Assembly (NCBI GenBank): GCA_030525945.1
Contig: JAUNDT010000002.1
Span: forward strand, 1-64,000
Length of the DNA: 64,000 nt
Source of the DNA: Coriobacteriaceae bacterium
Lineage (GTDB): Bacteria > Actinomycetota > Coriobacteriia > Coriobacteriales > Coriobacteriaceae
Reading direction: 5' to 3'
Below are positions 3,513-46,997 of this stretch, piece by piece. Position numbers and translations under genes: made by a program. How positions within the stretch are numbered: the stretch's first letter is position 1; every line of letters begins with the position of its first letter. Under the pieces are notes generated by a model that searched no databases, had not been told where the DNA came from, and worked only from the letters and a program-made list of their open reading frames with translations.

Positions 3513-3641
3513 GGTATCGCGCTCCTTGCGAATCAGTGACCATCTTTAGCTTCATCTGATTCATGATACGCTATGCAAGGAAATATATTAATTCTTTCAT
3601 GCATCTTTCGCATGGAGTGGAGTTGAAGGCCGGGTGGCGGT

Positions 3642-4778
3642 TTGTCAACAATTTGCATCTTTTCTGCCTTGTGTTTCCCCAGCATGGGCGGTGTTGAGCG
3701 ATTTACGGACAGTCTTTCTGCTGAGCTGGTCCGGCAGGGCCATGAGGTGATCGTTGTCACGAACGATACGCACGGTTTGGGGATGCATGATGTCTCTTCA
3801 GGTGTCGAGACGTTTCGCTTACCGTGCTTCAATGTGTTGGGTGGTCGCTACCCTGTTCCAGTCTGCAATTTTGATTACCGTGTCGTCATGGATGAGCTCG
3901 ATGCGCGCCAGATCGATGGCATCTTGGTCAACACGCGCTTCTACTTGCATTCGATACTGGGCGTTCGCATTGCTAAGCGTCATGGGCTTCAGGCCGTTGT
4001 GCTCGATCATGGTTCGGCGTACTTAACGCTCGGCTCTTCTGTATTGGATTGGGCGATCGCGCGCTATGAGGATACGATCACGAGGTATCTACGGCGGCAA
4101 CCGGTTGATTTTTACGGTATTTCGCAGAAAAGCACAGAGTGGCTTGCGCATTTTGGTGTGAAGGCGCGTGGGATCATCAACAATTCAATTGATGCTGCGG
4201 CGTATCGAGCGCAGGCATCCAGTAGGTCGTTTAGATCTGAGTTGGGCATCGGCGACGAGTTGATGTTGGCATTCACGGGGCGTTTTATTCTCGAGAAAGG
4301 TATTACCGTCCTGATTGATATGATGCGGCAACTTCAAGGTGAACGAGTGCATCTGGTTATGGCTGGGGATGGTCCGCTGCGTAGCGTGATTGAAGATGCA
4401 AAGCTCGAGGCTGTGCATCTCGTTGGGAGGCTCGATGCGCCCGATATTGCTGCTCTGCTGTTGGAGAGCGATGTGTTCTGTCTCCCTACCCGTTCTGAGG
4501 GTTTCTCGACTTCCCTTCTTGAATCTGCCGCGTGTGGAACACCGTCTCTGGTGACGGATGTCGGCGGCGCACGCGAGCTGATGCCGGATGACTCGTACGG
4601 TTTTGTCATGCATGAGGCCGATGCTCGCGCATTCGCATCGCTTGTTCATCGGATTTTGCGGGGGACCTACGACCTTGCGGACATGGGTGATCGCTGCAGA
4701 TGTCGAGCTGAGGAGTATTGTTCTTGGGATGCTACGGCGCATAAAGTGGTCGAAGCGGTCTGCCCAAATCGACGTTGA
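3642..4778 (+). CDS. GT4 family glycosyltransferase
   Basis: This 378-residue GT-B glycosyltransferase starts with an acceptor-binding domain (SMGGVER, residues 14-20). The C-terminal donor-binding half has GRFILEKG near 205 and the family E-x7-E motif (EGFSTSLLE, about 286-294), followed by CGTPSLVTDVGG. Retaining GT4 enzymes transfer sugars such as mannose, glucose or GlcNAc to lipid-linked glycans in the cytoplasm. The TTG start is chosen because an in-frame TGA lies just upstream at 3624-3626 and the reading begins directly with the expected beta strand. The exact donor is unknown. Confidence 0.85.
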   Translation: MSTICIFSALCFPSMGGVERFTDSLSAELVRQGHEVIVVTNDTHGLGMHDVSSGVETFRLPCFNVLGGRYPVPVCNFDYRVVMDELDARQIDGILVNTRFYLHSILGVRIAKRHGLQAVVLDHGSAYLTLGSSVLDWAIARYEDTITRYLRRQPVDFYGISQKSTEWLAHFGVKARGIINNSIDAAAYRAQASSRSFRSELGIGDELMLAFTGRFILEKGITVLIDMMRQLQGERVHLVMAGDGPLRSVIEDAKLEAVHLVGRLDAPDIAALLLESDVFCLPTRSEGFSTSLLESAACGTPSLVTDVGGARELMPDDSYGFVMHEADARAFASLVHRILRGTYDLADMGDRCRCRAEEYCSWDATAHKVVEAVCPNRR

Positions 4779-27055: not shown

Positions 27056-27083
27056 TTGAATTATTCTGTAACGAGAATATAGA
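27056..27083 (+). promoter_or_regulatory. Promoter of moeA with dyad operator in the spacer
   Basis: TTGAAT (27056-27061) and TATAGA (27078-27083) are 16 bases apart. The spacer holds an inverted repeat, TATTCT...AGAATA at 27062-27079, that also appears, slightly altered, in front of modA. A regulator of molybdenum genes may bind here; that is inferred. Confidence 0.5.
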
Positions 27084-27136
27084 TGTCGAGCGCGACCACG
27101 AGGTCACGCCCGACCGCACGCAGGGAGGTTGCCGCC

Positions 27137-28417
27137 ATGACAAGCAAGGAAAACCCGGACGCCCATATGATCACGGTCGAGGATGCGCAGCGCATCATCC
27201 TGGAGCGCGCGTGCCCAACGCCCATCGAGCAGGTGCCGACTTGGCTCGCCGCCGGCCGACCTTTGGCCGAGGACGTCGCCACCGACATCGACCTCGCTCC
27301 CTTTGCGAACAGCGCCATGGACGGATACGCCGTGCGCGCTCAGGATTTGGCGGCTGCGGAGGCGGGCGCCCCGGTTGAGCTCGAGGTCATCGGCCACGAG
27401 GCGGCGGGCCATGTGTTCGAGGGTGCAGTCGAGCCCGGCACGACGGTTCGCATCATGACGGGCGCCCCCGTCCCTGAGGGAGCGGACGCCGTGGTCAAGT
27501 ACGAGATCGTCGAGGTGCTCGAAGGCGACGGCAACGAGGGGTCGCGCGTGTGTTTTGCCGCTCCCGCGCGCGTGGGCGACAACATTCGCGAGGCGGGCCT
27601 CGAGGCCAAGCGCGGCGAGGTGGTCATGCATGCGGGTGAAGTGGTGACGGCTGCGGGGGCGGGCCTGCTCGCCAACGCCGGAAAGGCGACCGTTGCGGTT
27701 CACCGCGCCCCGCGCATCGGCATCGTTTCGCTCGGAACGGAGCTCGTGGACGCAGGCACCGTCCCGGCGCGCGGGCAGATCCGCGACGTGAATGCCCCGG
27801 CGCTCATGGCCGCGGCGCGCGATGCGGGTGCCGAGGCGACGTTTTACGGCATTGCCCCCGATGACGAGGAGCGCATCTGCGAGCTCGTCCGCCGCGCCGC
27901 TGCCGAGTGCGATTTGGTCGTCACCTCGGGCGGTGCCTCCGCGGGCGACTACGACTATGTGACCGCTCTGGTGGAACGCGAGGGCGAGGTCCAGTTCGAC
28001 CGCATCTCCATGCGCCCGGGCAAGGCGGTGACGTTCGGCATGCTCGGGAACACGCCGTTCTTCGGGCTTTCCGGCAACCCCGCCGGAGCGTTTATCGGCT
28101 TTGAGCTGTTCGTGCGCCCGGCGGTGCGCAAGATGATGGGGCATGCGGAGCTGTTCCGCCCCGTTCAGACGGCGCGCGTGGCGCACGATGTTAAGAAGCG
28201 CCAGGAGCGCAGGTTCTACAACCGCGCCCGTGTGGAGCGCCGCAGCGATACGGGCGAGCTCGAGGTCACGCAGGCGCCCACGCAGAACTCCGCGATGCTC
28301 GTGGACCTGCACCGCGGTAACTGCCTGCTCGTCATGCCCGACGGCGTGGGCGGCGCGAAAGCGGGCGACGAGGTCTCGGTGCTTCGCTACGACCTGCCCG
28401 AGGGCGCGGTCCTGTAG
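27137..28417 (+). CDS. moeA: Molybdopterin molybdotransferase
   Basis: This 426-residue enzyme inserts molybdate into adenylated molybdopterin, the last step of molybdenum-cofactor synthesis. The N-terminal domain has the family segment APFANSAMDGYAVRAQDL (residues ~55-72) and GTTVRIMTGAPVPEGADAVV. The central domain has GIVSLGTELV, TSGGASAGDYDYV and GLSGNPAGAFIGFE, and domain IV follows. The start is the ATG with GGGAGG nine bases upstream; an open frame extends further upstream but lacks a ribosome site. It forms a unit with mogA, 27 bases on. Confidence 0.96.
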   Translation: MTSKENPDAHMITVEDAQRIILERACPTPIEQVPTWLAAGRPLAEDVATDIDLAPFANSAMDGYAVRAQDLAAAEAGAPVELEVIGHEAAGHVFEGAVEPGTTVRIMTGAPVPEGADAVVKYEIVEVLEGDGNEGSRVCFAAPARVGDNIREAGLEAKRGEVVMHAGEVVTAAGAGLLANAGKATVAVHRAPRIGIVSLGTELVDAGTVPARGQIRDVNAPALMAAARDAGAEATFYGIAPDDEERICELVRRAAAECDLVVTSGGASAGDYDYVTALVEREGEVQFDRISMRPGKAVTFGMLGNTPFFGLSGNPAGAFIGFELFVRPAVRKMMGHAELFRPVQTARVAHDVKKRQERRFYNRARVERRSDTGELEVTQAPTQNSAMLVDLHRGNCLLVMPDGVGGAKAGDEVSVLRYDLPEGAVL

Positions 28418-28444
28418 TTTTCGCGATGTTCGAAAGGATCTCCC

Positions 28445-28951
28445 ATGGATATCACCTTTGCCATCATCATCTGCTCGGATACGCGCACGGTTGCCGAGGA
28501 TGAGGCCGGCGCGGCGCTGCGCGACCTCATCGAGGGCGCGGCGTGGCGCGTGGTCTCCCATGCCGTGGTGCGTGACGACGCGGGCGCCATTGCGAGCGCC
28601 ATCGCCTCCGCAACCGATCGCGCCCAGGCGGACATCGTCCTGACCTGCGGGGGCACGGGACTGTCGCCGCGCGACGTGACGCCCGAGGCCACGGCTGCGG
28701 CGTGCGACCGCGATGTGCCCGGTATCGCCGAGGCGATCCGCGCCTACTCACTTGCGAAAACGCGCCGCGCCATGCTGTCTCGCGCACGCTGCATGCAGCG
28801 CTGGGTGCGCGATGAGGCGGGTGAACGAACGGGCAAACTCGCGCTCGTGATCAACTTCCCCGGGTCGACGAAGGCGGCCAGGGAGTGCTGGGAGGCCATT
28901 TCCGACCAGCTGGAGCACGCCATGAAGATGTCCGCGGGCGGCGGGCATTAG
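28445..28951 (+). CDS. mogA: Molybdopterin adenylyltransferase (MogA/MoaB-like)
   Basis: This 168-residue protein has the MoaB/MogA fold: IIICSDTRTVAEDEAG near the N-terminus, TCGGTGLSPRDVTPEAT (about 67-83) and VINFPGSTKAARECW near 139. It activates molybdopterin with AMP so that MoeA can load molybdate, and it lies directly behind moeA. AAAGGATC precedes the ATG. MogA and MoaB cannot be told apart by sequence alone, so the symbol is a choice. Confidence 0.9.
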   Translation: MDITFAIIICSDTRTVAEDEAGAALRDLIEGAAWRVVSHAVVRDDAGAIASAIASATDRAQADIVLTCGGTGLSPRDVTPEATAAACDRDVPGIAEAIRAYSLAKTRRAMLSRARCMQRWVRDEAGERTGKLALVINFPGSTKAARECWEAISDQLEHAMKMSAGGGH

Positions 28952-28964
28952 GTGAGGGGTCAGC

Positions 28965-28989
28965 GGCGAGAAAGCCCCGGTCTCTCGCC
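28965..28989 (+). terminator. Weak hairpin after mogA
   Basis: Seven-base arms GGCGAGA and TCTCGCC enclose an 11-base loop just past mogA. No T tract follows, so it may only attenuate transcription into the mod genes. Confidence 0.35.
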
Positions 28990-29002
28990 CGTGTATCCTG
29001 CC

Positions 29003-29030
29003 TCGTCAATTATTCTCATGCGAGTATAAT
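29003..29030 (+). promoter_or_regulatory. Promoter of modABC with dyad operator in the spacer
   Basis: A perfect TATAAT (29025-29030) is preceded at 16 bases by a weak TCGTCA. The sequence TATTCTCATGCGAGTATA at 29011-29028 is an imperfect palindrome, aligned base for base with the one in front of moeA at the same place relative to the -10 box. Confidence 0.55.
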
Positions 29031-29088
29031 TTCGACCAGCAGGCATTGTGCATTCCCGGTCCAGGGGATGCGGGGAAAGGAAGGTTCC

Positions 29089-29958
29089 ATGAACATGCAC
29101 GCATTTTCACGCAAGGGCTTGGTGATGCTCGGGGCATCTGTCCTGCTCGCCGGGGCGCTTACGGGCTGTGGAGCGGGCGCGGCAACGAGCGGCTCCGGTT
29201 CGGCATCGGGCGCGTCCTCTCAGGCTGAGCCCGTCGAGCTGCAGGTGTTCGCTGCCAACTCGCTCGAGAAGGCCCTGCCCGAGGTGCAGAAGCTGTATAC
29301 GGAGCAGACCGGCGTCACGTTCACCGATACGCAGTTCAAGGCATCGGGCGACCTGGTGGAGCAGATGCGTGCGGGCGCCCCGGTCGACGTGCTTATCACC
29401 GCCTCCAAGGGGACTATGGACGACGCCGCCGCGGGCGAGCTTGTGGATGAGTCGACGCGCCTGGACATGTTCAACAACGACCTGGTGGTCGCGCGCGCGG
29501 AGGGGTCCGATATCAAGATCGAGTCCCTCGCCGACGTCGCCAACGTTGACGGCAAGATCGCCATCGGCGACGCCATCACGGTTCCCGCGGGCAAGTACGC
29601 CAACCAGGCGCTGCATTCGGTTGGCCTCTACACGGGCGCCGAGGGTGACGACGGCGAGTACGCGCCCGAATTTGCCGGCCGCGTGGCGCTTGCCGACAAG
29701 GTGGGCACCGCCGCCAAGTATGTGAGCACCGGTGACGCCGCCATTGGCTTTGTCTACAGCTCCGACATTTTCCGCTATGAGGGTATTGAGCAGGCGTTTG
29801 TTTGCCCGGACGACTCGCATAAGCCCATCGTGTACCCGGGCGCCGTCTCCGCCTCCTCCAAACACGCCAAGGCCGCCCAGGATTTCCTGGACTTTTGCAT
29901 GAACAACGCCGAGGCGCAGAAGATCTGGGCCACCTACGGCTTTGAGCTTGCCGAGTAA
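29089..29958 (+). CDS. modA: Molybdate-binding lipoprotein of the ABC importer
   Basis: This 289-residue protein has a lipoprotein signal (lipobox LTGC, Cys27), then a Ser/Gly-rich linker. A periplasmic-binding-type domain of the ModA family follows: VFAANSLEKALPEVQKLY, FKASGDLVEQMRAGAPVDVLITAS, and later FVYSSDIF. It captures molybdate, or possibly tungstate, outside the membrane. GGAAAGGAAGG precedes the ATG. It starts its own transcription unit with modB three bases on and modC after that. Confidence 0.93.
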   Translation: MNMHAFSRKGLVMLGASVLLAGALTGCGAGAATSGSGSASGASSQAEPVELQVFAANSLEKALPEVQKLYTEQTGVTFTDTQFKASGDLVEQMRAGAPVDVLITASKGTMDDAAAGELVDESTRLDMFNNDLVVARAEGSDIKIESLADVANVDGKIAIGDAITVPAGKYANQALHSVGLYTGAEGDDGEYAPEFAGRVALADKVGTAAKYVSTGDAAIGFVYSSDIFRYEGIEQAFVCPDDSHKPIVYPGAVSASSKHAKAAQDFLDFCMNNAEAQKIWATYGFELAE

Positions 29959-29961
29959 CCC

Positions 29962-31596
29962 ATGCGATGCGCGCGCCCGTACCCCCAGATGATGCTGCTA
30001 CGTGTGCGGGCGTATGCGCTTGCGCTGCTCGCCGTGCTCGTGTGCTGCGCAGCGAGCGCGTGTTTTGCGACCGCCGCGCCTGCGTGCGCATGGGGGGACG
30101 AGGCGGGCGAGAGCGCCGCGGCCCCCGGCGAGGTGGCGGCTCTCGATACGTCCTATGTCCCCGATAACGTCGAGTTCCTTTCCGAGGGAGCCGCTCGCTT
30201 CGAGGGCGTCCCCTTCGGCATCTCCGCCTTCGAGCGCATTGCCAAGGGCACCCAGCGCGCGGGCGAGGGCATGCCTGCGGGCTACCGCATTCCCATTCAG
30301 GCGGACGCGAACTTCGCGGTGGTGCGCACGCCCGAGCAGGCGCTCGTGTACGTTGACCAGGGGGCGGCGGGCCTTAAGGACTCGGGGCTCACGAGTACGC
30401 CCGAGCATGCGTCCGCGTTCTGGTCGATGGTTCTTACCTTGGACGAGGCGGGAAGCATGAGCGGTCCGACGCTTACCGAGGAGGCCCCGAAGCCCCTGCT
30501 GTGCACGAGGAGCACGGTTGTGGTGGGGCCGTATCGCTATCGCTTCGATGCTGAGGACGCGGACGGGAACCGCTATGTGACCGTTACCCCGGCTGCGCTG
30601 GCGGAACATGAGCTCACGCCCGATATGATCCGCGCCACGGGGCTTGATTTGGGCGATGGTGCCCGGTGGGTCGACAGCGGCATCGTGGTGCCGGCAACCG
30701 GGCTCGCCGGCCCCGCTTCCCAAAGCGCGCTTGACCAGGCGCTCTCGTTTGTAGCCTCGATCGATATGCGACCTTTGTGGGTGTCCCTCAAAACGGGCGT
30801 GGTGGCGCTCGCTATTTCGTTTGTGCTCGGTCTGTTGGCGGCATGGCGGGTCATGGGCACGTCAAGCCGTCTGAAGGGCGTGCTCGACTCGGTTTTCACG
30901 ATCCCCATGGTGCTACCGCCCACGGTCTGCGGCTTTTTGCTGCTCATGCTCTTTGGCAACTCGACCGCGATGGGCCGTTGGCTCGTGGAGCACGGCATCG
31001 AGGTCGTGTTCACCTGGCAGGCTGCGGTGATCGCCGCCGTGGTGGTGAGTTTTCCGCTCGTGTACCGCACGGCGCTTGGGGCGTTCGAGGGCCTCGACGC
31101 CTCGATGCTCGACGCCGCCCGCACGCTCGGATGGTCCGAGTGGCGCATTTTCCGCTTCATCACGCTTCCGCTCGCATGGCCCTCGATCGCGGCGGGTACG
31201 GTGCTCGCGTTCGCTCGTGCCATGGGAGAATTCGGCTGCACGCTCTTTTTCGCCGGCAACTATGCGGGTATCACTCAGACCATTCCCATCGCCATTTACT
31301 TTGAATGGATGGGCGGAAACACGGACGTGGCGCTCTTTTGGGTCGTCGTGGTGATCGCGTTCAGCTTCTTAGTGGTGCTGGGTATCAACTCCTATACCGC
31401 GCGTCAGCAGGCGTATCGCACGGGTGCACCCGCTCGGGCGCGGCGCGGGGGCGCGGCTCGCAAGCGCGACGCTGCGCCCTCCGCCCGCCCACTCGACGAG
31501 ATCGACGCGATGGGCGGAGACGCCGTCCGCATCGACCAGCGCGCGCTGGCGGAGCTGCTTGCGGAATCCGGCGCCGACGGCAACGGGGGTGCATGA
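29962..31596 (+). CDS. modB: Molybdate ABC permease with large extracytoplasmic N-terminal region
   Basis: At 544 residues this is about twice the normal ModB length. The permease proper is residues ~270-485, with membrane segments starting PLWVSLKTGVVALAISFVLG. The coupling loop is GLDASMLDAARTLGWSEWRIF, followed by LPLAWPSIAAGTVLAFARAMGEFG, as in ModB. It is preceded by a signal-like hydrophobic segment (11-37) and about 225 residues of soluble, presumably external sequence that I cannot assign to a family. The C-terminus adds about 60 polar residues, rich in Arg and Ala. It should pair with ModA and ModC. Confidence 0.88.
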   Translation: MRCARPYPQMMLLRVRAYALALLAVLVCCAASACFATAAPACAWGDEAGESAAAPGEVAALDTSYVPDNVEFLSEGAARFEGVPFGISAFERIAKGTQRAGEGMPAGYRIPIQADANFAVVRTPEQALVYVDQGAAGLKDSGLTSTPEHASAFWSMVLTLDEAGSMSGPTLTEEAPKPLLCTRSTVVVGPYRYRFDAEDADGNRYVTVTPAALAEHELTPDMIRATGLDLGDGARWVDSGIVVPATGLAGPASQSALDQALSFVASIDMRPLWVSLKTGVVALAISFVLGLLAAWRVMGTSSRLKGVLDSVFTIPMVLPPTVCGFLLLMLFGNSTAMGRWLVEHGIEVVFTWQAAVIAAVVVSFPLVYRTALGAFEGLDASMLDAARTLGWSEWRIFRFITLPLAWPSIAAGTVLAFARAMGEFGCTLFFAGNYAGITQTIPIAIYFEWMGGNTDVALFWVVVVIAFSFLVVLGINSYTARQQAYRTGAPARARRGGAARKRDAAPSARPLDEIDAMGGDAVRIDQRALAELLAESGADGNGGA

Positions 31597-31599
31597 GGC

Positions 31600-32700
31600 A
31601 TGTCGCTTGAGCTCGACATTAAAAAGCACTACGCGGACTTTGACCTGGATGTCCAGCTCGAGGTGGGGCAGGAGCGCGTGGCCCTGCTCGGCGCCTCGGG
31701 TTGCGGCAAGAGCCTGACACTGCGCTGCATCGCGGGCGTTGAGACACCCGATGAGGGGCGCATCGTTGTGGATGGCGTCACGTTTTTCGACTCGGTACGC
31801 GGTATCAACCTCTCTGCCCAGGAGCGCCGCTGCGCCCTGCTATTCCAGAACTACCAGTTGTTTCCCCACATGACGGTCGAGGAGAACGTATGCGCCGGCA
31901 TGCGAGGGGCTCTGAGACGGTGGGGGCACGGTGGGCCCGTGGCCAGCGCGCGCGAGGAGGCGCGGGTGTTTTTACGGATCTTTGGCGTGGAGGCGCTGGC
32001 GGCTCGCTATCCCGCCCAGCTTTCCGGCGGCCAGCAGCAGCGCGTGGCGCTCGCCCGCATGCTCGCGGCCCGACCGGGCATCCTCATGTTCGACGAGCCG
32101 CTCTCTGCCCTCGACGCGTATCTCAAGAGCGCGCTGGAGCAGAATCTCATCGACGTGTTCTCCCTCGTAAACCGGACTGTTTTGTATGTGAGCCATGACA
32201 TCGACGAGGCATGCCGCCTGTGCGACCGCATTTGCGTGCTGCATAACGGCCGCATTGAGGAGCAGGGAAGCCCCGAGGATCTGCTGGTGCGCCCCCAAAC
32301 GCTCGCGGCGTTGCGGCTGACGGGCTGCAAGAACACCTCGCGTGCCCGCAAGGCGGGACCTCGTCAGGTTGAGGCGATCGACTGGGGCATGACGTTCGAG
32401 ACGGGATGCGACGTGCCCGACAACGTGGCATTCGTGGGTATTCGCGCGAGTTATATCCACCGCGAGCACGCGGGCCATGCGGGTGAGCGGGCGCGCAACA
32501 GCTTTGATTTGCGCGTGGCGCGGGTGAGCGATGCGCGTTTTGAGCGCCTGGTGTTGCTCGATCCGCCGCGAAGCGATGCGCCAACACGAATTCAGTGGAA
32601 GGTAGGGAAGGTGGACGCGGACCCGGCGTCCCTTCCGCATGAGGGCGATGTGCTGCGACTGCATTTCGACGCGCGCCGCCTCATGATGGTGACCCGGTAG
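31600..32700 (+). CDS. modC: Molybdate ABC importer, ATP-binding subunit
   Basis: This 366-residue protein has Walker A GASGCGKS (about 30-37), the Q-loop LLFQNYQLFPHMTV, signature LSGGQQQRVALARML and Walker B ILMFDEPLSALD, then the H-loop YVSHDIDEA. Residues from about 270 form one TOBE-like regulatory domain, the usual ModC arrangement. It powers import through ModB. The start ATG comes 3 bases after modB's stop, which fits one polycistronic mRNA. Confidence 0.93.
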   Translation: MSLELDIKKHYADFDLDVQLEVGQERVALLGASGCGKSLTLRCIAGVETPDEGRIVVDGVTFFDSVRGINLSAQERRCALLFQNYQLFPHMTVEENVCAGMRGALRRWGHGGPVASAREEARVFLRIFGVEALAARYPAQLSGGQQQRVALARMLAARPGILMFDEPLSALDAYLKSALEQNLIDVFSLVNRTVLYVSHDIDEACRLCDRICVLHNGRIEEQGSPEDLLVRPQTLAALRLTGCKNTSRARKAGPRQVEAIDWGMTFETGCDVPDNVAFVGIRASYIHREHAGHAGERARNSFDLRVARVSDARFERLVLLDPPRSDAPTRIQWKVGKVDADPASLPHEGDVLRLHFDARRLMMVTR

Positions 32701-32829: not shown

Positions 32830-32877
32830 TCCGCGATCCCATGCCGCGAGGTGTGGGTGCTCGCAAGGGGGATGCAC

Positions 32878-35800
32878 ATGATGCACAACGGACGTCGGTC
32901 CTGGGCGGTTACGGTGACGGGCGCGGCGGTTGCCGCCAGCACGTGCCTCGCGCTTTCGTGGGCGCCGTCGGTCGCTATCGCCGCCGAGGCACAGGCCGGC
33001 GCGGTCCAGCTGGCCGCGCAGTTCAGCAACGGCCTGCCGAAGACCGTTCAGTTTGAAAAGGTGACTGGCGAGGTCGCCTCTGGTGAGACGTTCACGATCG
33101 TCTCCACCACGTCCAACGACGCTCACAAGCGCGTGATTCATATTGGGGCGACGGGCACGAAGCTCGACCGCTGCAAGGCTACCAAGGTCGATGCCACGCT
33201 CAATCCCATTGACTGCGAGGTCAAGGGCAACGAGAAGACGGGCGCTCACGAGTGGACCGTGACCAAGGCCGACGGCGGCTACACGGTCGAGAGCAAGCGC
33301 CAGAAGGGCCAATATCTCAATATTAAGAGCGGTTCCGCTGCCCTGGGTAGCGAGAAGCAGGTCCTGCAGCTGGAGAAGGCGGGCGAGGATGCCTTTACGC
33401 TGAGCTGCACGATTGACGGTGCCAAGTACTACCTCTCCTACGCTTCGACTGGCTGGACCTCCTCCACGACGGCACAGAACGTGTATCTGTACCAGCGCAA
33501 GGAAGTCACTCCGAACGTCGTTCCCAACGAGAAGCCCAAGCCGGGTACCACGGTTGACCAGCCGTTTGCCAGCAACACCGCCGGTAGCCGCTTCTTCCGC
33601 ATTCCCGCCATGGTTGCCCAGCAGGACGGAAGCCTGCTTGCCGCGATTGACGCGCGCTGGAACACGACGGGTGACGCCGGCGGCCTCGATACCATCGTGA
33701 GCCGCTCCACGGACGGTGGCAAGACCTGGAGCTACAGCTTCCCCAATTATTTCAACGACAGCGCCGATGCATACAATAGCCGCGCTACTGCGTTCATCGA
33801 TCCCGTTTTGGTCCAGAAGGGCAACACGACCTACATGATGGTCGACCTGTGGCCGGGCGGCGTCGCACTCAACTCCGCGGCGAACAACCATCCTGTTGAC
33901 GCGAGCGGTTACGTCGAGATTGACGGCCATCAGCGTCTGGTGCTGTTCGCTTCGGCAAACCCCGATGAGCAGCGTGCAGCTGGTGCCGAGCGCGGCGAGG
34001 GCTATACGCACTACGTGGGCGACTTCGATGCCTCTGGGTATGCGCCGGTTATCAAGAAGGACGGCGGCGAGACGTCGTATTACGTCAATCGCGAGTTCTA
34101 CCTGTTCAATGCTGACAAGGAGCCCGTGTACTGCCAGCAGCTCGGCACAAGCGATTACGTCCAGCAGAACGTGTTCTACTACAACGCCGATTTGCATGTG
34201 ACTGCTACGTCTTACCTGTGGATGGTCAACTCGACTGACGGCGGGGCGACCTGGTCTGCACCTCTCATGCTCAACGAGCAGGTTCGCACGAACCTGAAGG
34301 AAAAGAACTCCAGCTTCTACGGCGTTGGACCTGGCCGCGGCTTGGTGACGTCCTCTGGTCGCATTGTGCTGCCTTGCTATACGTTCGAGTACGGTAAGGG
34401 CGACGGCAAAACGAGCGTCATCTACTCCGATGACGGTGTGAACTGGAAGCGCAGCGAGTCGCTCGACCACCAGACCTCCGAGGCCACGGTTGTCGAGGCA
34501 GACGGCAAGCTCTACATCTTCGCGCGCCACGGTTGGTACGCGGTGTCCACGGACGGCGGTGCTACCTGGGGCGAGGAGAAGAGCCTGCGCGAGACCGGCA
34601 TCCCGGTCGATACCGGTTGCCAGATTAACGCCATCACCTATTCCGAGAAGATCGACGGCAAGACCGCGATCCTGCTCTCGTGCCCCACGGGTTCTTCCCG
34701 CCGCACGAACGGCAGCATTTTCGTGGGTCTCGTCCAGCCCGACGGCAGCCTTTCCTGGGACTACGAGTACAAGGTCACGACGGGCGGTACGTGGTACGCC
34801 TACTCCTGCCTGACCGAGCTTCCCAACGGCTCCGTCAGTGTTCTGTATGAGACCACGGGCGATACCGCGAAGTATGAGAACTTCGCCATCGAGGACATCG
34901 CCAAGAACGCGCAGATCGGCAACGAGCGCGAGCTCGCCGTCCCGCTGTACGGCGAGGTCGAGTTCAAGGTCAAGGGCAGCCTCACTGGCTTTGACGCCGC
35001 CGACAAGAGCATCGCCGGGATTAGCGTGAAGGACAACGGCGACGGCACGTCCACGGTGACGGTCAAGGGCCTCAAGGAGGGTAAGACCTCCTTTACCGGC
35101 AGCGACGACGTGGATTACTCGATCACCGTTGCGCCCGAGCAGCTCGTTGAGAAGACCATCAATCCGGGTGAGACCTTTACCGCCCCGGTGAAGTCCGACA
35201 AGTTGACTCACGAGCCCGACACCTCCATCGCCACTGCCAAGATCACCGTGGGTAAGGCCTCCGAGGTCCTGGGCGAGACGGTGGGAACGCTGGGCAGCGA
35301 CGCCAACTACAAGGGCGACGTCGAGGTCCTGAGCAAGTCCCTCTACACGTTCGACAAGGGCGAAGACGGCAAGTGGACGGTTTCCGCCACGCTGGAGAAC
35401 GGCACCAAGACCTACGTTAAGCTGGGCGATAAGGGCAAGCCGAACAAGAAGCAGGCCGGCAAGATCGAGATCAAGGCCGGCACGGGCGATCGCGCGGGCC
35501 AGTTCAAGCTGTACGACTCCTCGGTTCAGGGCGGCGGCAAGCATCTGCACTTCTGGCGCGACGGCAAGAACGTCTTCGACCAGTGCGGCGGCTCTACCTG
35601 CAACGATGACTATCTCGAGCTCTACCGTCCCGCTAAGGACGGCGAGCAGTCGAGCACGGCTATCCCGGGCTACGTACAGGTTAAGACCGCTGATGAGGTG
35701 ACCTCGGGCGGGAAGTACCTGGTCGCCGCGAACTATCAGAACACGCGCTACGTGCTGCACCCCACCACCGAGCAGGGCAGCATGTACGACAACGTCATCA

Positions 35801-36336
35801 AGGTCAATCCGGATGCGCCCTACAACGTCCTCACCGTCACGGGTGTTGCCGCCGGCACCACCGATGTCGCGGTTGACGGCGTGGTGTATCGCGTGACCGT
35901 CCGCGGCTACCTCGCACCGGTCTTTACGTGGGCGGACGATTACTCCTCCGCGACGGCGACCTTCAACCGCAACGACGGCGGCGACGCCAAGACGGTTGAT
36001 GCCGTGGTGACGAGCGAGCGCGTTGAGCCTACGCCGACCGAGGATGGCCAGATCACCTACACGGCCACGGTCGAGTTCGAGGGCAAGACCTACACGGATA
36101 CCAAGACCGTCGTCCTGCCTGCCACGGGCGAGACCGATCCGGAGCAGCCCGAGAAGCCTGAGAAGCCCGAGCAGCCGACGGATCCGCAGCGTCCCGGTAA
36201 GCCTTCCAAGCCGAGCGAGAGGCCTGGTTCCGCGCTGCCGCAGACGGGCGATCCCGCTGCCTTCGCCGGCATCGCCGCCGCTGTGGGCGCCGGCATCTCC
36301 GCGCTGGGCGCGCGCATGAAGCGTCGCTGGGAGTAA
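32878..36336 (+). CDS. Cell-wall-anchored sialidase (GH33)
   Basis: This 1152-residue exo-sialidase probably releases sialic acid from mucin and other host glycans. A signal peptide (to about residue 37) is followed by a beta-rich, possibly carbohydrate-binding region (50-215). The catalytic propeller starts at RFFRIPAM (Arg of RIP at 241) with AIDARW next. Asp boxes are STDGGKTW at 277, STDGGATW at 452, SDDGVNW at 517 and STDGGATW at 557. The late Tyr nucleophile region is WYAYSCLTEL. Further Ig-like and repeat regions lead to a Pro/Glu/Lys-rich wall spacer and an LPQTG sortase signal at 1120, with a hydrophobic stretch and KRRWE tail. ATG 32878 has AAGGGG 7 bases upstream. Confidence 0.95.
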   Translation: MMHNGRRSWAVTVTGAAVAASTCLALSWAPSVAIAAEAQAGAVQLAAQFSNGLPKTVQFEKVTGEVASGETFTIVSTTSNDAHKRVIHIGATGTKLDRCKATKVDATLNPIDCEVKGNEKTGAHEWTVTKADGGYTVESKRQKGQYLNIKSGSAALGSEKQVLQLEKAGEDAFTLSCTIDGAKYYLSYASTGWTSSTTAQNVYLYQRKEVTPNVVPNEKPKPGTTVDQPFASNTAGSRFFRIPAMVAQQDGSLLAAIDARWNTTGDAGGLDTIVSRSTDGGKTWSYSFPNYFNDSADAYNSRATAFIDPVLVQKGNTTYMMVDLWPGGVALNSAANNHPVDASGYVEIDGHQRLVLFASANPDEQRAAGAERGEGYTHYVGDFDASGYAPVIKKDGGETSYYVNREFYLFNADKEPVYCQQLGTSDYVQQNVFYYNADLHVTATSYLWMVNSTDGGATWSAPLMLNEQVRTNLKEKNSSFYGVGPGRGLVTSSGRIVLPCYTFEYGKGDGKTSVIYSDDGVNWKRSESLDHQTSEATVVEADGKLYIFARHGWYAVSTDGGATWGEEKSLRETGIPVDTGCQINAITYSEKIDGKTAILLSCPTGSSRRTNGSIFVGLVQPDGSLSWDYEYKVTTGGTWYAYSCLTELPNGSVSVLYETTGDTAKYENFAIEDIAKNAQIGNERELAVPLYGEVEFKVKGSLTGFDAADKSIAGISVKDNGDGTSTVTVKGLKEGKTSFTGSDDVDYSITVAPEQLVEKTINPGETFTAPVKSDKLTHEPDTSIATAKITVGKASEVLGETVGTLGSDANYKGDVEVLSKSLYTFDKGEDGKWTVSATLENGTKTYVKLGDKGKPNKKQAGKIEIKAGTGDRAGQFKLYDSSVQGGGKHLHFWRDGKNVFDQCGGSTCNDDYLELYRPAKDGEQSSTAIPGYVQVKTADEVTSGGKYLVAANYQNTRYVLHPTTEQGSMYDNVIKVNPDAPYNVLTVTGVAAGTTDVAVDGVVYRVTVRGYLAPVFTWADDYSSATATFNRNDGGDAKTVDAVVTSERVEPTPTEDGQITYTATVEFEGKTYTDTKTVVLPATGETDPEQPEKPEKPEQPTDPQRPGKPSKPSERPGSALPQTGDPAAFAGIAAAVGAGISALGARMKRRWE

Positions 36337-43263: not shown

Positions 43264-43437
43264 ATGGCCGAATCCACTTCCGCACGTCGCCCGTTCGTCG
43301 ACCCCGTTGTCGAGGTGATCACCTTCGACCCGCACGAGGATATCGTGTGCACTTCCGGTCTTACACCCACCACGCCCGACCAGGGTTTTGACGGCACGAA
43401 CTGGCCGCTCTTCTATGGCGAGGATTTTGAGGGCTAG
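43264..43437 (+). CDS. 57-residue peptide, candidate precursor of a peptide-modification system
   Basis: This short gene has an excellent AAAGGAGC ribosome site and encodes 57 residues. The first half is basic then acidic and contains VVEVITFDPHEDIVCTSG; the second half is aromatic and acidic (GTNWPLFYGEDFEG at the end). There is no signal peptide. Small proteins with a KPxxEVxxFxxEDVIxTSG-like core are common in gut bacteria as I recall, with no settled function. It is 40 bases after the giant protein gene and touches the next gene. Its position in front of HprK-like and PqqD-like genes suggests that it is the substrate of the operon, but this is inferred. Confidence 0.75.
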   Translation: MAESTSARRPFVDPVVEVITFDPHEDIVCTSGLTPTTPDQGFDGTNWPLFYGEDFEG

Positions 43438-43438
43438 G

Positions 43439-43990
43439 ATGTTCGATAAATCTGATGAGGCCGGTCGTTACGGCGCGATCGGCCTGGGTCTTGGGTGCCT
43501 CGTGGTGAGCGCGCTCGTGCTCGCACTCGCTTTCTTTGGGGGCGGTGCTGGGCATGACCTGGGCAGCGCGGGCGAGGATTCGGGCCGCAATCATGCTGTG
43601 AAGGACTCCGCACCGGATGACGGGGAGGATGGCGTTGACTTTTCCGAGCTTGGAAAGGACGGGGGTGCTTCGGCATCCGGGTCTAAGGGCTCGGGCGGTC
43701 TTGTTGAGGCAAATGACCGGCGCTCGGGCGGGTCTTCGTCCAAGGACTCCGGCAAGGGCGATGAGAGCTCGAAGCCTGCGGGCGGTGCCTCGCATGACGA
43801 GAATGGTGGCGCTGGCGGCGCGGACGCACCGGATGCTGGCGGGCCCGGCGATGCTCCAGGTCAAGGTGATGATTCTGGCGATAAACCCGGCCAGGGCGGT
43901 GGGGACCAGGGCGGCGATTCCGGCGGGAGCGGCGGCTCCGGCGATGCGAAGCCCGACGAGCCTGTAACTGAGTGGGGCCCGGTGATGTAG
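43439..43990 (+). CDS. One-helix membrane protein with Gly/Ser/Asp-rich tail
   Basis: This 183-residue protein starts one base after the preceding stop. A short cytoplasmic head (MFDKSDEAGRYGA) leads into one hydrophobic helix (about 12-34). After that the chain is low-complexity and very rich in Gly, Ser, Asp and Lys to the end, which reads PDEPVTEWGPVM. No catalytic motif is seen. It could be a surface spacer, an anchor or a modified substrate. Its tight packing between the peptide and kinase genes ties it to the operon. I do not recognise a family. Confidence 0.7.
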   Translation: MFDKSDEAGRYGAIGLGLGCLVVSALVLALAFFGGGAGHDLGSAGEDSGRNHAVKDSAPDDGEDGVDFSELGKDGGASASGSKGSGGLVEANDRRSGGSSSKDSGKGDESSKPAGGASHDENGGAGGADAPDAGGPGDAPGQGDDSGDKPGQGGGDQGGDSGGSGGSGDAKPDEPVTEWGPVM

Positions 43991-43991
43991 C

Positions 43992-44966
43992 GTGCCGCAA
44001 GTCGGTTCGTTTACCGCGCGGATTGCCGGACTCACCTGGGAGATTGTTCCTCGGTATTCGATGATTCGTGCCATGTGTCGCCCGTATCACGCACCAGAGA
44101 CTGGCTCGTTCGGGCAGGCAGTGGCCACGATTGCGCCGAGTGAGGCGGACATCGAGCGCGAGCGCCTCAAGGCGGACGGGGAGTACCCGGACGCGTATCT
44201 TGAGACGCTCGCGGTGCTGCGCGGCATGGCGGAGGTGGCGCCGTTGCACGGGCGTCTGCTCGTCCACGCGGTTGCCCTGGAGTATCGCGGAGACGGGTAT
44301 CTGTTCTGCGCGCCCAGCGGCACGGGCAAGTCGACCCATGCGCGCCTGTGGTGCGAGCACTTGGGTGCGGATGCGCGTATTCTGAACGGGGATAAGTGCT
44401 TTATCGAGGTGCCCGTGCCTGGGGCTGAACGCATACGTTCTGAGTGCAGTGAACGTGCTGACGATGCCCGTCCCGCCGAGGGGGACATGCCCGTTGAGGG
44501 CTCCTTGCGTGCCGATGGCCGATCGGATGCTCAGGACCTCGTGCGTCCCGAAGGGTCCATGTCCGCTGAAGGCTGCCCCTGTGGAGAGATTCGTGCGGGC
44601 ACGGAGGACCTTCTGTATCCCGAGGGTATTGCACACCCCGAAGTTCCTCGTGTGTACGGTTCCCCCTGGATGGGCAAGGAAGGCTGGGGCTTTCCCGGCG
44701 ACGCGCCGCTCAAGGGTATATGCATGCTTTCGCGAGCTCATGGCGAGCCTCCGCATGCCGAGCGTCTTGACGCCGCTTGCGCGTTGTCCGCCTGCGCGGC
44801 GTGCCTGTACATGCCGCACGCCGCTGCGCCTCGCGTGGCAAGTCTGCAGCTCATTGACGCTTTGCTGCACACGGTTCCCGTCGTAAGCGCGCGGGTGAAC
44901 ATCGACGTGGAGTCGGTCGAAGTGGTTCGTCAAGCCCTCGCGGCGTGTGAGGGTTCGGTTACATAA
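43992..44966 (+). CDS. HPr kinase-like (HprK-related) ATPase
   Basis: This 324-residue protein has the HprK-type P-loop APSGTGKSTHARLW (about 108-121), the following NGDKCFIEV segment and VYGSPWMGKEGWG, which is conserved in HprK-related kinases linked to PqqD proteins. In lasso-peptide clusters, such kinases phosphorylate the peptide. Here the N-terminal half lacks the usual HprK regulatory domain. An insertion of about 65 residues (about 150-217) with imperfect ~25-residue repeats (RPEGSMSAEG-like) separates the two active-site segments. The GTG start is one base after the previous stop. What it phosphorylates is unknown; the 57-residue peptide is the best candidate. Confidence 0.8.
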   Translation: MPQVGSFTARIAGLTWEIVPRYSMIRAMCRPYHAPETGSFGQAVATIAPSEADIERERLKADGEYPDAYLETLAVLRGMAEVAPLHGRLLVHAVALEYRGDGYLFCAPSGTGKSTHARLWCEHLGADARILNGDKCFIEVPVPGAERIRSECSERADDARPAEGDMPVEGSLRADGRSDAQDLVRPEGSMSAEGCPCGEIRAGTEDLLYPEGIAHPEVPRVYGSPWMGKEGWGFPGDAPLKGICMLSRAHGEPPHAERLDAACALSACAACLYMPHAAAPRVASLQLIDALLHTVPVVSARVNIDVESVEVVRQALAACEGSVT

Positions 44967-44976
44967 GGTGGTTGTT

Positions 44977-45243
44977 GTGAGCAGGATTCGCCCTGGATTT
45001 GAGGTTCATGTCGTTGCCGACTGCCCGGTGGTTATCGCCACGGGTGATGCGGTGCGCGAGTTTGCCGGGATGATTCGTCTCAATGAGACGTCGCTGGAGA
45101 TCTGGCGCGCCCTTGAGGACGGCCTGTCGAACGAGCAGATCGCCGAGCGCTTGTGCTTGTTGTTCGAGGTCGCCGAGCGCGAGGCTCTTGCGAGTGTGGA
45201 GCGTGTTGTGGATGAGCTCTCCCGCGCCGGCGCGCTTCGGTAG
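44977..45243 (+). CDS. PqqD family peptide chaperone-like protein
   Basis: This 88-residue protein matches the PqqD fold: an N-terminal beta hairpin (VVIATGDAVREF), MIRLNETSLEIWRALEDG, and then three helices (SNEQIAERLCLLFEV...VERVVDELSRAG). PqqD proteins bind the leader of a ribosomal peptide and present it to the modifying enzyme. The GTG at 44977 has AAGGTGG six bases upstream and sits 10 bases after the kinase stop; a longer frame upstream lacks a ribosome site. It strongly supports the view of this operon as a peptide-processing system. Confidence 0.85.
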   Translation: MSRIRPGFEVHVVADCPVVIATGDAVREFAGMIRLNETSLEIWRALEDGLSNEQIAERLCLLFEVAEREALASVERVVDELSRAGALR

Positions 45244-45254
45244 AGGTTCGTTCC

Positions 45255-45692
45255 GTGCGTATAGAACAGCTGCTTGACCAGAGGGTTCCGTATGTGGGGC
45301 CCGTGAGCGGCGACAGCATGAAGCCGCTTATCCGCCCCGGGAGGGACCGCGTTGTCATTGCGCCGCTTGCGCCTGACCGCGTGCCCGTGACGGGCGATGT
45401 CGTGCTGTTGTGCGCTGGCGGCGTCAATGTATTGCACCGGGTGATTCGAACGGACGGCCGCGCGTTCACGCTGTTGGGTGATGCGTCGGTCGTACCGGAG
45501 CAGGGCGTTCTCCGCGAGCAGATTCGCGGAGAGCTGGTTGAGCTGTGGCGGGATGGTAAGCGCGTCGACTTGCGGGGCGGCGCATACCGAGCGTACGCGC
45601 GCCTGATGCTCGTGTGCCCGCCGGCACGGTGCGCTGCTCGCCGCGCCGTGGGGCGGTTGGCCCACGTGTTGTCAAAGTGCGGCAGGCGGTAG
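45255..45692 (+). CDS. S24/S26 family peptidase-like protein
   Basis: This 145-residue protein starts with VSGDSMKPLIRPG (Ser at about 19-21 in the SGxSM motif of signal peptidase-like enzymes) and continues GDVVLLC...NVLHRVIRTDG. The His in LHRV replaces the Lys of bacterial signal peptidase I, as in SipW-type Ser-His enzymes. No membrane helix is evident, so it may work in the cytoplasm. The GTG follows GAGG; the gene lies 11 bases past the PqqD-like gene. It could cut the leader from the modified peptide, which is inferred from context. Confidence 0.75.
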   Translation: MRIEQLLDQRVPYVGPVSGDSMKPLIRPGRDRVVIAPLAPDRVPVTGDVVLLCAGGVNVLHRVIRTDGRAFTLLGDASVVPEQGVLREQIRGELVELWRDGKRVDLRGGAYRAYARLMLVCPPARCAARRAVGRLAHVLSKCGRR

Positions 45693-45731
45693 CTTTTGTG
45701 TAATCAATGCAGCGACGAAAAGGGAGGGCGA

Positions 45732-46997
45732 ATGCCTGTGACGAGTGGAACGGCGGCGGGCGATGAGCGTCTGATCGCCGCCGCGCGAACGCTCATGGAT
45801 ATGGTGAACGCGTCGTTTGACGGAGCGTCCTGCGCAGACCGCCCCTGCGTTTTGCCGGAGGGCGTGACGTGGGCGAACATGCTTAGCCTCGCCATTACCC
45901 ATAGCCTGGACGCCGCCAGCTGGCCGTACGTACAGGGCCGCTCGGACATTCCCGAAAAGGTCCGCTCGGCATGGGAGCGGCGCTCCCAGCTCTCGTTGTT
46001 CCGGCACGTTCGCATGGACGCAGAGCGCGAGGCGGTGTTTGCGGAGCTCGACCGCGCGGGCATCGCCTACATGCCTCTGCGCGGCACCTTGATTGCGAAC
46101 TACTATCCGTGCCCCGAGATGCGCACCATGTCGGACAACGACTTCCTATATGGCTATGTTGAATGCGATGGGCAGGGCGTGTACCGCGGTCTGGGTTCCA
46201 ACGACACCGCTCGCGCGCGCAATGCCGAGCGCGCCATGCTGGCGGTCCGCGACGTGTTCGCCGGCCGCGGGTACGAGGTCAAAAACCTGCGCGGCGGCAA
46301 TCACGACAGCTATCACAAGGAGCCGTGTTACAACTTTGAGCCGCACCGGCACCTTATCACGCCCACGGGTCCTCACGGGTTTTATTACGAGAATCCGTGG
46401 CGCTTGGCCAAGCCGGTGCATGAGGGCGGCCTTCGGTTTGCGATGGATGCGACCGACGAGTACATCTACACCGTGGTTCACGCGTACAAGCATGTTGTTG
46501 GGTCGGGGCTCGGCTTGCGGATTGTTGCGGACGTGCGTGCGTTTTGGGCGTGCCGCGGCGATGCGATGGATGAGGGACGCCTTGTGCATGAGCTCGATGT
46601 TCTCGGTTTGGTTGAGTTTGAGCGGGCGCTGAGATGGTTGGCGCAGGATGGGCCCCAAGCGTGCGAGGAGTGCGACTCTGCGAAAAATCTCTTCGAATAT
46701 CTCGCGCGCTGCGGTGCGTACGGCACACGCGAGCAGGGGATTGCCAACCGTCTCAGTGCGGTTGCCGGCAAGGCAGGCCCGCTTGGTGGGCCGGCGGGCA
46801 AGGTTGATGCGCGTGCCCGCGTTCACTATGTGCTTGGACGGTTGGTCGATAGGGAAGTAATCGAAGCCTCGTTTCCCCATGCGTCACGCGTGCGCCTGCT
46901 GCTTCCGGCGCTCGTGGTGATCCGTGCCGTTCGCGGGTTCGCGCGGCATCCCAAGCGCCTTGCGCGTGAGCTCGGCCAGGTGCTGCGAAGCCGGTAG
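45732..46997 (+). CDS. Nucleotidyltransferase-like protein (NTP_transf_5 type)
   Basis: This 421-residue protein has the segment AGIAYMPLRGTLIANYYPCPEMRTMSDNDFL (about 100-130). In the NTP_transf_5 family this carries the K/R-G and R-x-M-x-D-x-D motifs; here the last reads RTMSDNDFL. A helical C-terminal half follows (YTVVHAYKHVVGSGLGLRIVADV). Family members occur in capsule and peptide-modification clusters and may transfer a nucleotide. GGGAGGG lies in front of the ATG; the frame is open further upstream without a ribosome site. It closes the operon that begins with the 57-residue peptide. Confidence 0.75.
   Translation: MPVTSGTAAGDERLIAAARTLMDMVNASFDGASCADRPCVLPEGVTWANMLSLAITHSLDAASWPYVQGRSDIPEKVRSAWERRSQLSLFRHVRMDAEREAVFAELDRAGIAYMPLRGTLIANYYPCPEMRTMSDNDFLYGYVECDGQGVYRGLGSNDTARARNAERAMLAVRDVFAGRGYEVKNLRGGNHDSYHKEPCYNFEPHRHLITPTGPHGFYYENPWRLAKPVHEGGLRFAMDATDEYIYTVVHAYKHVVGSGLGLRIVADVRAFWACRGDAMDEGRLVHELDVLGLVEFERALRWLAQDGPQACEECDSAKNLFEYLARCGAYGTREQGIANRLSAVAGKAGPLGGPAGKVDARARVHYVLGRLVDREVIEASFPHASRVRLLLPALVVIRAVRGFARHPKRLARELGQVLRSR

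Follow-up and report, generated by a model that had tools for sequence, protein, structure and literature searches.

The stretch studied here comprises the first 64,000 nucleotides of contig JAUNDT010000002.1 of a Coriobacteriaceae bacterium (GenBank assembly GCA_030525945.1; hereafter the window), and it carries six closely spaced genes that a preliminary description had taken to be an unrecognized peptide-modification operon. They encode a short peptide, a one-helix membrane protein, an HprK-like kinase, a PqqD-like peptide-binding protein (a recognition element, RRE, of ribosomally synthesized and post-translationally modified peptides, RiPPs), an S26-like protease and a nucleotidyltransferase of the NTP_transf_5 type (Table 1). 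All six open reading frames (ORFs) were confirmed at positions 43264-46997, and the successive gaps from peptide to nucleotidyltransferase, 1, 1, 10, 11 and 39 bases, agree with the spacing given earlier. The clearest Shine-Dalgarno-like sequence of the operon, GAAAGGAGCC, lies ahead of the peptide gene, while counts of promoters and terminators were not higher than in shuffled sequences. The gene of a giant secreted protein stops 40 bases ahead of the peptide gene and is probably the first gene of the unit. In agreement with the preliminary description, no radical S-adenosylmethionine (SAM) enzyme and no lasso cyclase was found among the operon genes.

Table 1. The operon and the gene ahead of it, in window coordinates.
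Feature	Coordinates	Strand	Remarks
Giant secreted protein, 2221 amino acids	36558..43223	+	Signal peptide, F5/8 type C, Big_3 and PMP-type repeats (Pfam and NCBIfam)
Precursor-like peptide, 57 amino acids	43264..43437	+	MAESTSARRPFVDPVVEVITFDPHEDIVCTS / GLTPTTPDQGFDGTNWPLFYGEDFEG; leader profile match, family alignment
F11-V-D-P14, FxxP motif, proposed PqqD (RRE) recognition site	43294..43305	+	
C29-T30-S31, proposed cleavage boundary after Ser31	43348..43356	+	Cleavage inferred
One-helix membrane protein, 183 amino acids	43439..43990	+	Gly/Asp/Ser-rich linker; short C-terminal stretch EPVTEWGPVM
HprK/PEPCK-fold kinase	43992..44966	+	GTG start
PqqD-like peptide-binding protein (RRE)	44977..45243	+	GTG start; alternative start 44968
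S26/S24-fold serine protease, Ser21/His61, proposed leader peptidase	45255..45692	+	GTG start; without membrane segment
NTP_transf_5 nucleotidyltransferase	45732..46997	+	ATG start

The 57-residue peptide belongs to an unnamed family of leader-bearing, precursor-like peptides. Short ORFs adjoining the module in other genomes have in common a leader of the form [YF]xx[PLAV]..EVIxF..EDVIxTS, behind which comes an acidic tail that varies; with a duplicate contig removed, there are 51 distinct leader peptides in 42 loci (52 in 43 before), and 49 lie on the same strand as the module. No Pfam or NCBIfam model matches the family peptides. As the window peptide had been one of the seeds of the first leader profile, it was retested with a profile from which it was excluded, and of the window's 1431 ORFs it alone was matched (E = 5.9e-5, the next being 4.8). 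In the family alignment, Asp26 and Ser31 are conserved at 90% or more, and the motif [YF]xx[PLAV] is present in all 45 peptides, with the stricter [YF]xxP in 28 of the 45 compared with 14% in shuffles. YxxP is the known recognition sequence of the lasso RRE, and hydrophobic substitutions such as LxxP occur (PMC12710340); we propose that the FVDP of the window peptide, an FxxP motif of this lasso-recognition type, is the site bound by the PqqD-like protein. At the proposed boundary between leader and tail, position -1 is Ser in 44 of the 45 peptides and position -3 is Thr, Ala, Cys or Val in 37. Enzymes of the signal-peptidase fold have small residues at -3 and -1 of their substrates, and since the TxS boundary agrees with this rule, we propose the S26-like protease as the cutter. 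The alignment yielded a common leader, a variable tail and a plausible protease site, in keeping with the earlier suggestion that the peptide is cut. In a metagenome-assembled genome of Synergistaceae, five tandem leader peptides stand ahead of the kinase (L120:685-1333, + strand).

The families of the operon are found together across phyla; the rarity of the combination that, by the preliminary description, would have refuted its reading was not observed. Loci were fetched by the kinase alone, the partners playing no part in the selection: a kinase-profile scan with one genome per species gave more than 500 confirmed kinase relatives and, among the matches listed, 80 loci, of which L040 and L121, apparently a single contig, were taken as one, leaving 79 distinct loci. 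The hosts are mostly gut and rumen Clostridia, together with Bifidobacterium, Coriobacteriia (Atopobiaceae), Synergistaceae and a few Bacteroidota. With neighborhood profiles run on six-frame translations, PqqD and S26 were both detected within 6.5 kb of the kinase and on its strand in 50 of the 79 loci, in 25 of these 50 along with the nucleotidyltransferase; among loci with enough flanking sequence (2.5 kb or more on the upstream side of the kinase and 5 kb or more downstream), the pair was found in 34 of 48, and 16 of these 34 also had the nucleotidyltransferase. Of the 398 genomes of the class, 24 (from 15 genera) encode NTP_transf_5 and 22 give strong S26 matches, with 18 having both (Fisher p = 1.4e-22, a value that overstates independence as the genomes are related); in the window's genus, 2 of 45 genomes have the kinase. 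Where the set is complete, its genes most often follow one another as kinase, PqqD, S26, exporter and nucleotidyltransferase, and the ABC (ATP-binding cassette) exporter family was found in 37 loci. The window's order, from peptide and one-helix protein through kinase, PqqD and S26 to nucleotidyltransferase, recurs in L077, likewise without exporter, and with an exporter ahead of the nucleotidyltransferase in L043, L089, L090, L100 and L109, as well as in L118, which has a second peptide too. L040 also shows the window's order, and since its contig agrees in length and genes with the Atopobiaceae contig L121, this order is probably present in Coriobacteriales. That order and membership have been kept from Coriobacteriia to Clostridia makes it most improbable that these genes are chance neighbors, with the kinase, protease and nucleotidyltransferase serving other substrates. 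No lasso cyclase or radical SAM neighbor family occurred in four or more of the kinase-selected loci. A sister subtype bearing a radical SAM enzyme is nevertheless present in Coriobacteriia, and even in the window's genus: one locus (L146 of genome G018), situated near polysaccharide genes, combines a radical SAM enzyme with PqqD, kinase, S26 and exporter.

The functional labels that the preliminary description gave to the four enzymes and binding proteins held up, two by sequence and two by structure. The PqqD-like protein matches Pfam PF05402 above the cut-off (E = 2.5e-11) and reaches 30.8 bits with the NCBIfam lasso PqqD model, under its cut-off of 70; the nucleotidyltransferase matches PF14907 (NTP_transf_5; E = 8.1e-31, 107.9 bits against a cut-off of 31.2), and its D135 and D137 are invariant in the family alignment, while a sequence search of the PDB with it gave nothing useful. 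For the kinase and the protease, the sequence matches are weak, and it is the predicted structures that uphold the labels. No HprK model of Pfam or NCBIfam matches the kinase above the cut-off by sequence; its predicted structure (mean confidence score, pLDDT, 83) matches the PEPCK and HprK/P folds with a Foldseek probability of 1.00, the P-loop reads SGTGKST, and H92, K113 and D134 are conserved in the family alignment. It also carries a Gly/Pro/Glu-rich insertion of about 65 residues (residues ~150-215; window 44440-44640), predicted to be disordered and missing from most aligned relatives. The protease has only sub-cut-off matches (Peptidase_S24, 18.6 vs. 23.3 bits) besides a sequence match to SEC11A (E = 1e-5); its predicted structure (pLDDT 94) gave matches to LexA, to type I signal peptidase and to SEC11, and in the family alignment Ser21 is conserved at 90% or more and His61 and Asp76 are invariant. 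The model and the alignment point to an S26/S24 fold with a catalytic Ser plus base.

The one-helix protein, which had no role in the preliminary description, is a recurrent partner of the module, and its C terminus is peptide-like in many loci. Proteins of this type, with one N-terminal helix or a lipoprotein signal and a low-complexity linker, were found near the module in 31 loci (35 candidates minus three judged spurious and one on the duplicate contig). In the 21 loci compared, the C termini of the one-helix protein and the peptide of the same locus had a mean likeness score of 19.6, compared with 14.0 ± 1.1 in permutations, and the value was reached in none of 20,000. The signal comes chiefly from L109, L110, L128, L090, L100, L040 and L118, with paired tails such as GELPFVPAE and IELPFVPAF (L109), EDELPWVPANE and EDELPWIPA (L110) or VDPFAG and LDPFE (L128); in the remaining loci, the window included (16 vs. 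14.9), it is near background. In L090, L097, L100, L109, L110, L118 and L128, no other ORF of the locus matches the C terminus of the one-helix protein as well as the peptide does, the L097 peptide having itself been discovered through tail matching. When 10 whole genomes were searched at the DNA level for sequences encoding ELPF[VI]P, 18 places matched, against 14 for the reversed control; with a total barely above the control, only the C-terminal placement in two kinds of protein is telling. Barring two unrelated ends, the C-terminal occurrences belong to one-helix proteins and leader peptides, and two of these sites fall in newly met loci ordered as surface protein, peptide, one-helix protein and kinase. 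In L110, the tail tag of the locus occurs a third time, as EDELPWLPA, in a secreted LRR_5 protein (3534-3953, + strand).

The giant secreted protein does lie directly ahead of the peptide gene, as the preliminary description had it, and a functional link with the operon, of which it was suggested to be a client, gains some support, short of proof, from the recurrence of such genes: among 70 loci with 4 kb of upstream sequence, 29 have a large, polar ORF of secreted type no more than 3.5 kb ahead of the kinase, a count that includes some loci fetched by the nucleotidyltransferase and stands without a matched background rate. By eye, the C-terminal region of the giant protein resembles those of its counterparts in Bifidobacterium (L068 and L070) and Lachnospira (L097); no LPXTG-type anchor was seen at its C-terminal end. 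Taken with the tail likeness, these observations raise the alternative of surface docking, in which the tag shared by peptide and one-helix protein is bound by one partner, for instance the giant protein, so that the membrane protein would tether it and the matured peptide would decorate it or compete. The within-locus likeness of the tails, the ability of the ELPF[VI]P pattern alone to find further one-helix proteins and leader peptides, the giant genes upstream of many modules and the anchorless end of the window's giant protein all favor this alternative, but the one-helix protein was detected in only 31 loci, the tails of the window itself are hardly alike and the giant proteins are diverse; we consider it improbable.

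The closest known relatives of the operon are lasso-peptide clusters. Those of paeninodin (PadeK) and pseudomycoidin (PsmK/PsmN) likewise combine a PqqD-type leader binder, an HprK-like kinase and a nucleotidyltransferase with a YxxP-type leader (PMC9266682, PMC12710340), and all three kinds of protein are known to accompany lasso clusters (PMC7533575). In contrast to these clusters, the operon is without the transglutaminase-like protease B2 and the cyclase, has an S26/S24-fold protease and comes with two surface partners, the one-helix protein and the giant protein. The lasso leader peptidase B2 (PF13471) has no match in the whole genome, and Asn_synthase (PF00733) has one strong match, a 627-residue frame on another contig that is AsnB-sized, judged by size only. 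With B2 absent from the genome and the cyclase from the operon, membership of the lasso clusters was ruled out; a lasso ring in the window core (Gly1 with Asp8) was dropped for lack of a cyclase. A decayed lasso cluster that has lost the genes of B2 and the cyclase would explain the lasso-like leader and the familiar companions (PMC7533575), but the set is complete and recurs in different phyla, lasso-enzyme neighbors are as scarce as described above, and neither the S26 protease nor the one-helix protein is a lasso part, all of which makes such decay very unlikely.

Other cassettes share parts of the set. SynChlorMet comprises the kinase-like ScmC, the PqqD-like ScmD and radical SAM enzymes; it resembles the operon in having an HprK-like and PqqD-like pair beside a peptide, and of the NCBIfam models it is ScmC that the kinase matches best, below threshold. 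Membership was ruled out, with ScmC at 18 bits against a cut-off of 125 and no radical SAM enzyme among the operon genes; the sister subtype of the same genus does have one. The HPr-rel-A system (HprK_rel_A, PqqD_rel_X) shares the pairing of kinase and PqqD and was ruled out as well, TIGR04352 and TIGR04353 scoring 14.9 vs. 200 and 16.7 vs. 35 bits. The nickel superoxide dismutase maturation protease (TIGR02754) is, like the operon's, an S26-type protease, and it removes a leader; the operon protease reaches 20.2 bits with this model against a cut-off of 63.25. On its gene content, we would class the operon as RiPP-like, with lasso-type recognition and tailoring enzymes and without lasso-forming enzymes.

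Our interpretation starts from what we regard as established, the content and order of the genes, their co-occurrence across phyla, the leader family and its conserved boundary, the folds and the shared tail. We put at roughly 0.6 the probability that the operon serves to produce a ribosomal peptide in the manner of RiPPs and to bring it into place, every chemical step, the order of the steps, the export and the surface role being inferred. The PqqD-like protein would bind the FxxP leader of the peptide and present it to the enzymes; the protease, soluble and of the S26 fold, would cut behind the conserved TxS, after Ser31, standing in for B2; the HprK-fold kinase would phosphorylate the peptide, most likely at or beside Ser31; and the NTP_transf_5 enzyme might then put a nucleotide or sugar on the phosphate, as proposed for PsmN. 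These four steps are drawn from the protein families and from the chemistry that an HprK-like kinase and the nucleotidyltransferase PsmN perform on lasso peptides in pseudomycoidin (PMC9266682). The product would then be exported, by the dedicated ABC exporter in many loci and by another one in the window's genome. Its partners at the surface would be the giant secreted protein and, in the membrane, the one-helix protein, which in many loci bears a C-terminal tag that copies the peptide tail.

Several observations weigh against this interpretation. PadeK and its relatives phosphorylate a C-terminal Ser, and PsmN acts on the phosphorylated Ser (PMC9266682); the precursor of the operon is without a C-terminal Ser, ending in Gly, and only 3 of the 45 family peptides end in Ser. 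Ten of the 45 tails are without any Ser, Thr or Tyr, which rules out tail phosphorylation as a general rule and makes the site of phosphorylation a guess. At position 133, the kinase of the window has Gly where the family consensus has the Asp of the paeninodin-type His-Lys-Asp-Asp set. Of the 50 kinase-selected loci that have both PqqD and S26, only 23 yielded a leader peptide, which must be either missing or diverged in the remainder. Finally, the window operon has no exporter, and the exporter homologues elsewhere in its genome are general exporters only, with 28-30% identity (best, 28%).

The hydroxyl-free tails also bear on an alternative in which the conserved N-terminal part is itself the product: cutting after Ser31, the only near-universal hydroxyl residue of the family, which sits at the boundary of leader and tail, would create a new C-terminal Ser for the kinase to phosphorylate and the nucleotidyltransferase to cap, and the tail would be a discarded address tag. 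Such a scheme suits the habits of PadeK-type kinases and PsmN (PMC9266682), the near-invariance of Ser31 and the variability of the tails. On the other hand, the conserved part resembles a lasso-type leader with an RRE motif, and the tails covary with the one-helix protein, suggesting that they matter; we regard this alternative as unlikely.

As a whole, then, the preliminary interpretation is partly supported. Returning to the RiPP-like reading, a bolder extension would unite the peptide, the membrane tether with its duplicated C-terminal tag and the giant surface protein in one cell-surface assembly, the peptide being matured by the cytoplasmic kinase, PqqD, protease and nucleotidyltransferase; the idea that gut bacteria possess a surface system of this new class is tentative, and we lean against it. 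We found no description of this gene combination in the open-access literature, which is not proof that none exists, and the system is widespread in gut bacteria and apparently undescribed. If the proposed maturation is correct, the animal gut harbors an abundant unnamed system of this kind, to go by the number of kinase relatives; its protease would be of a type so far undescribed in lasso-like maturation, and the system would offer a directly testable answer on the HprK-like kinases and NTP_transf_5 enzymes that occur outside lasso clusters.

Further upstream on the same strand, a large secreted protein with BNR (sialidase-type) repeats (window 32851-36336) directly precedes the giant protein, and genes for MoeA, a solute-binding protein, a permease and an ATPase stand in a row at window 27083-32700 (+), probably a molybdate uptake set, the substrate being suggested by MoeA.

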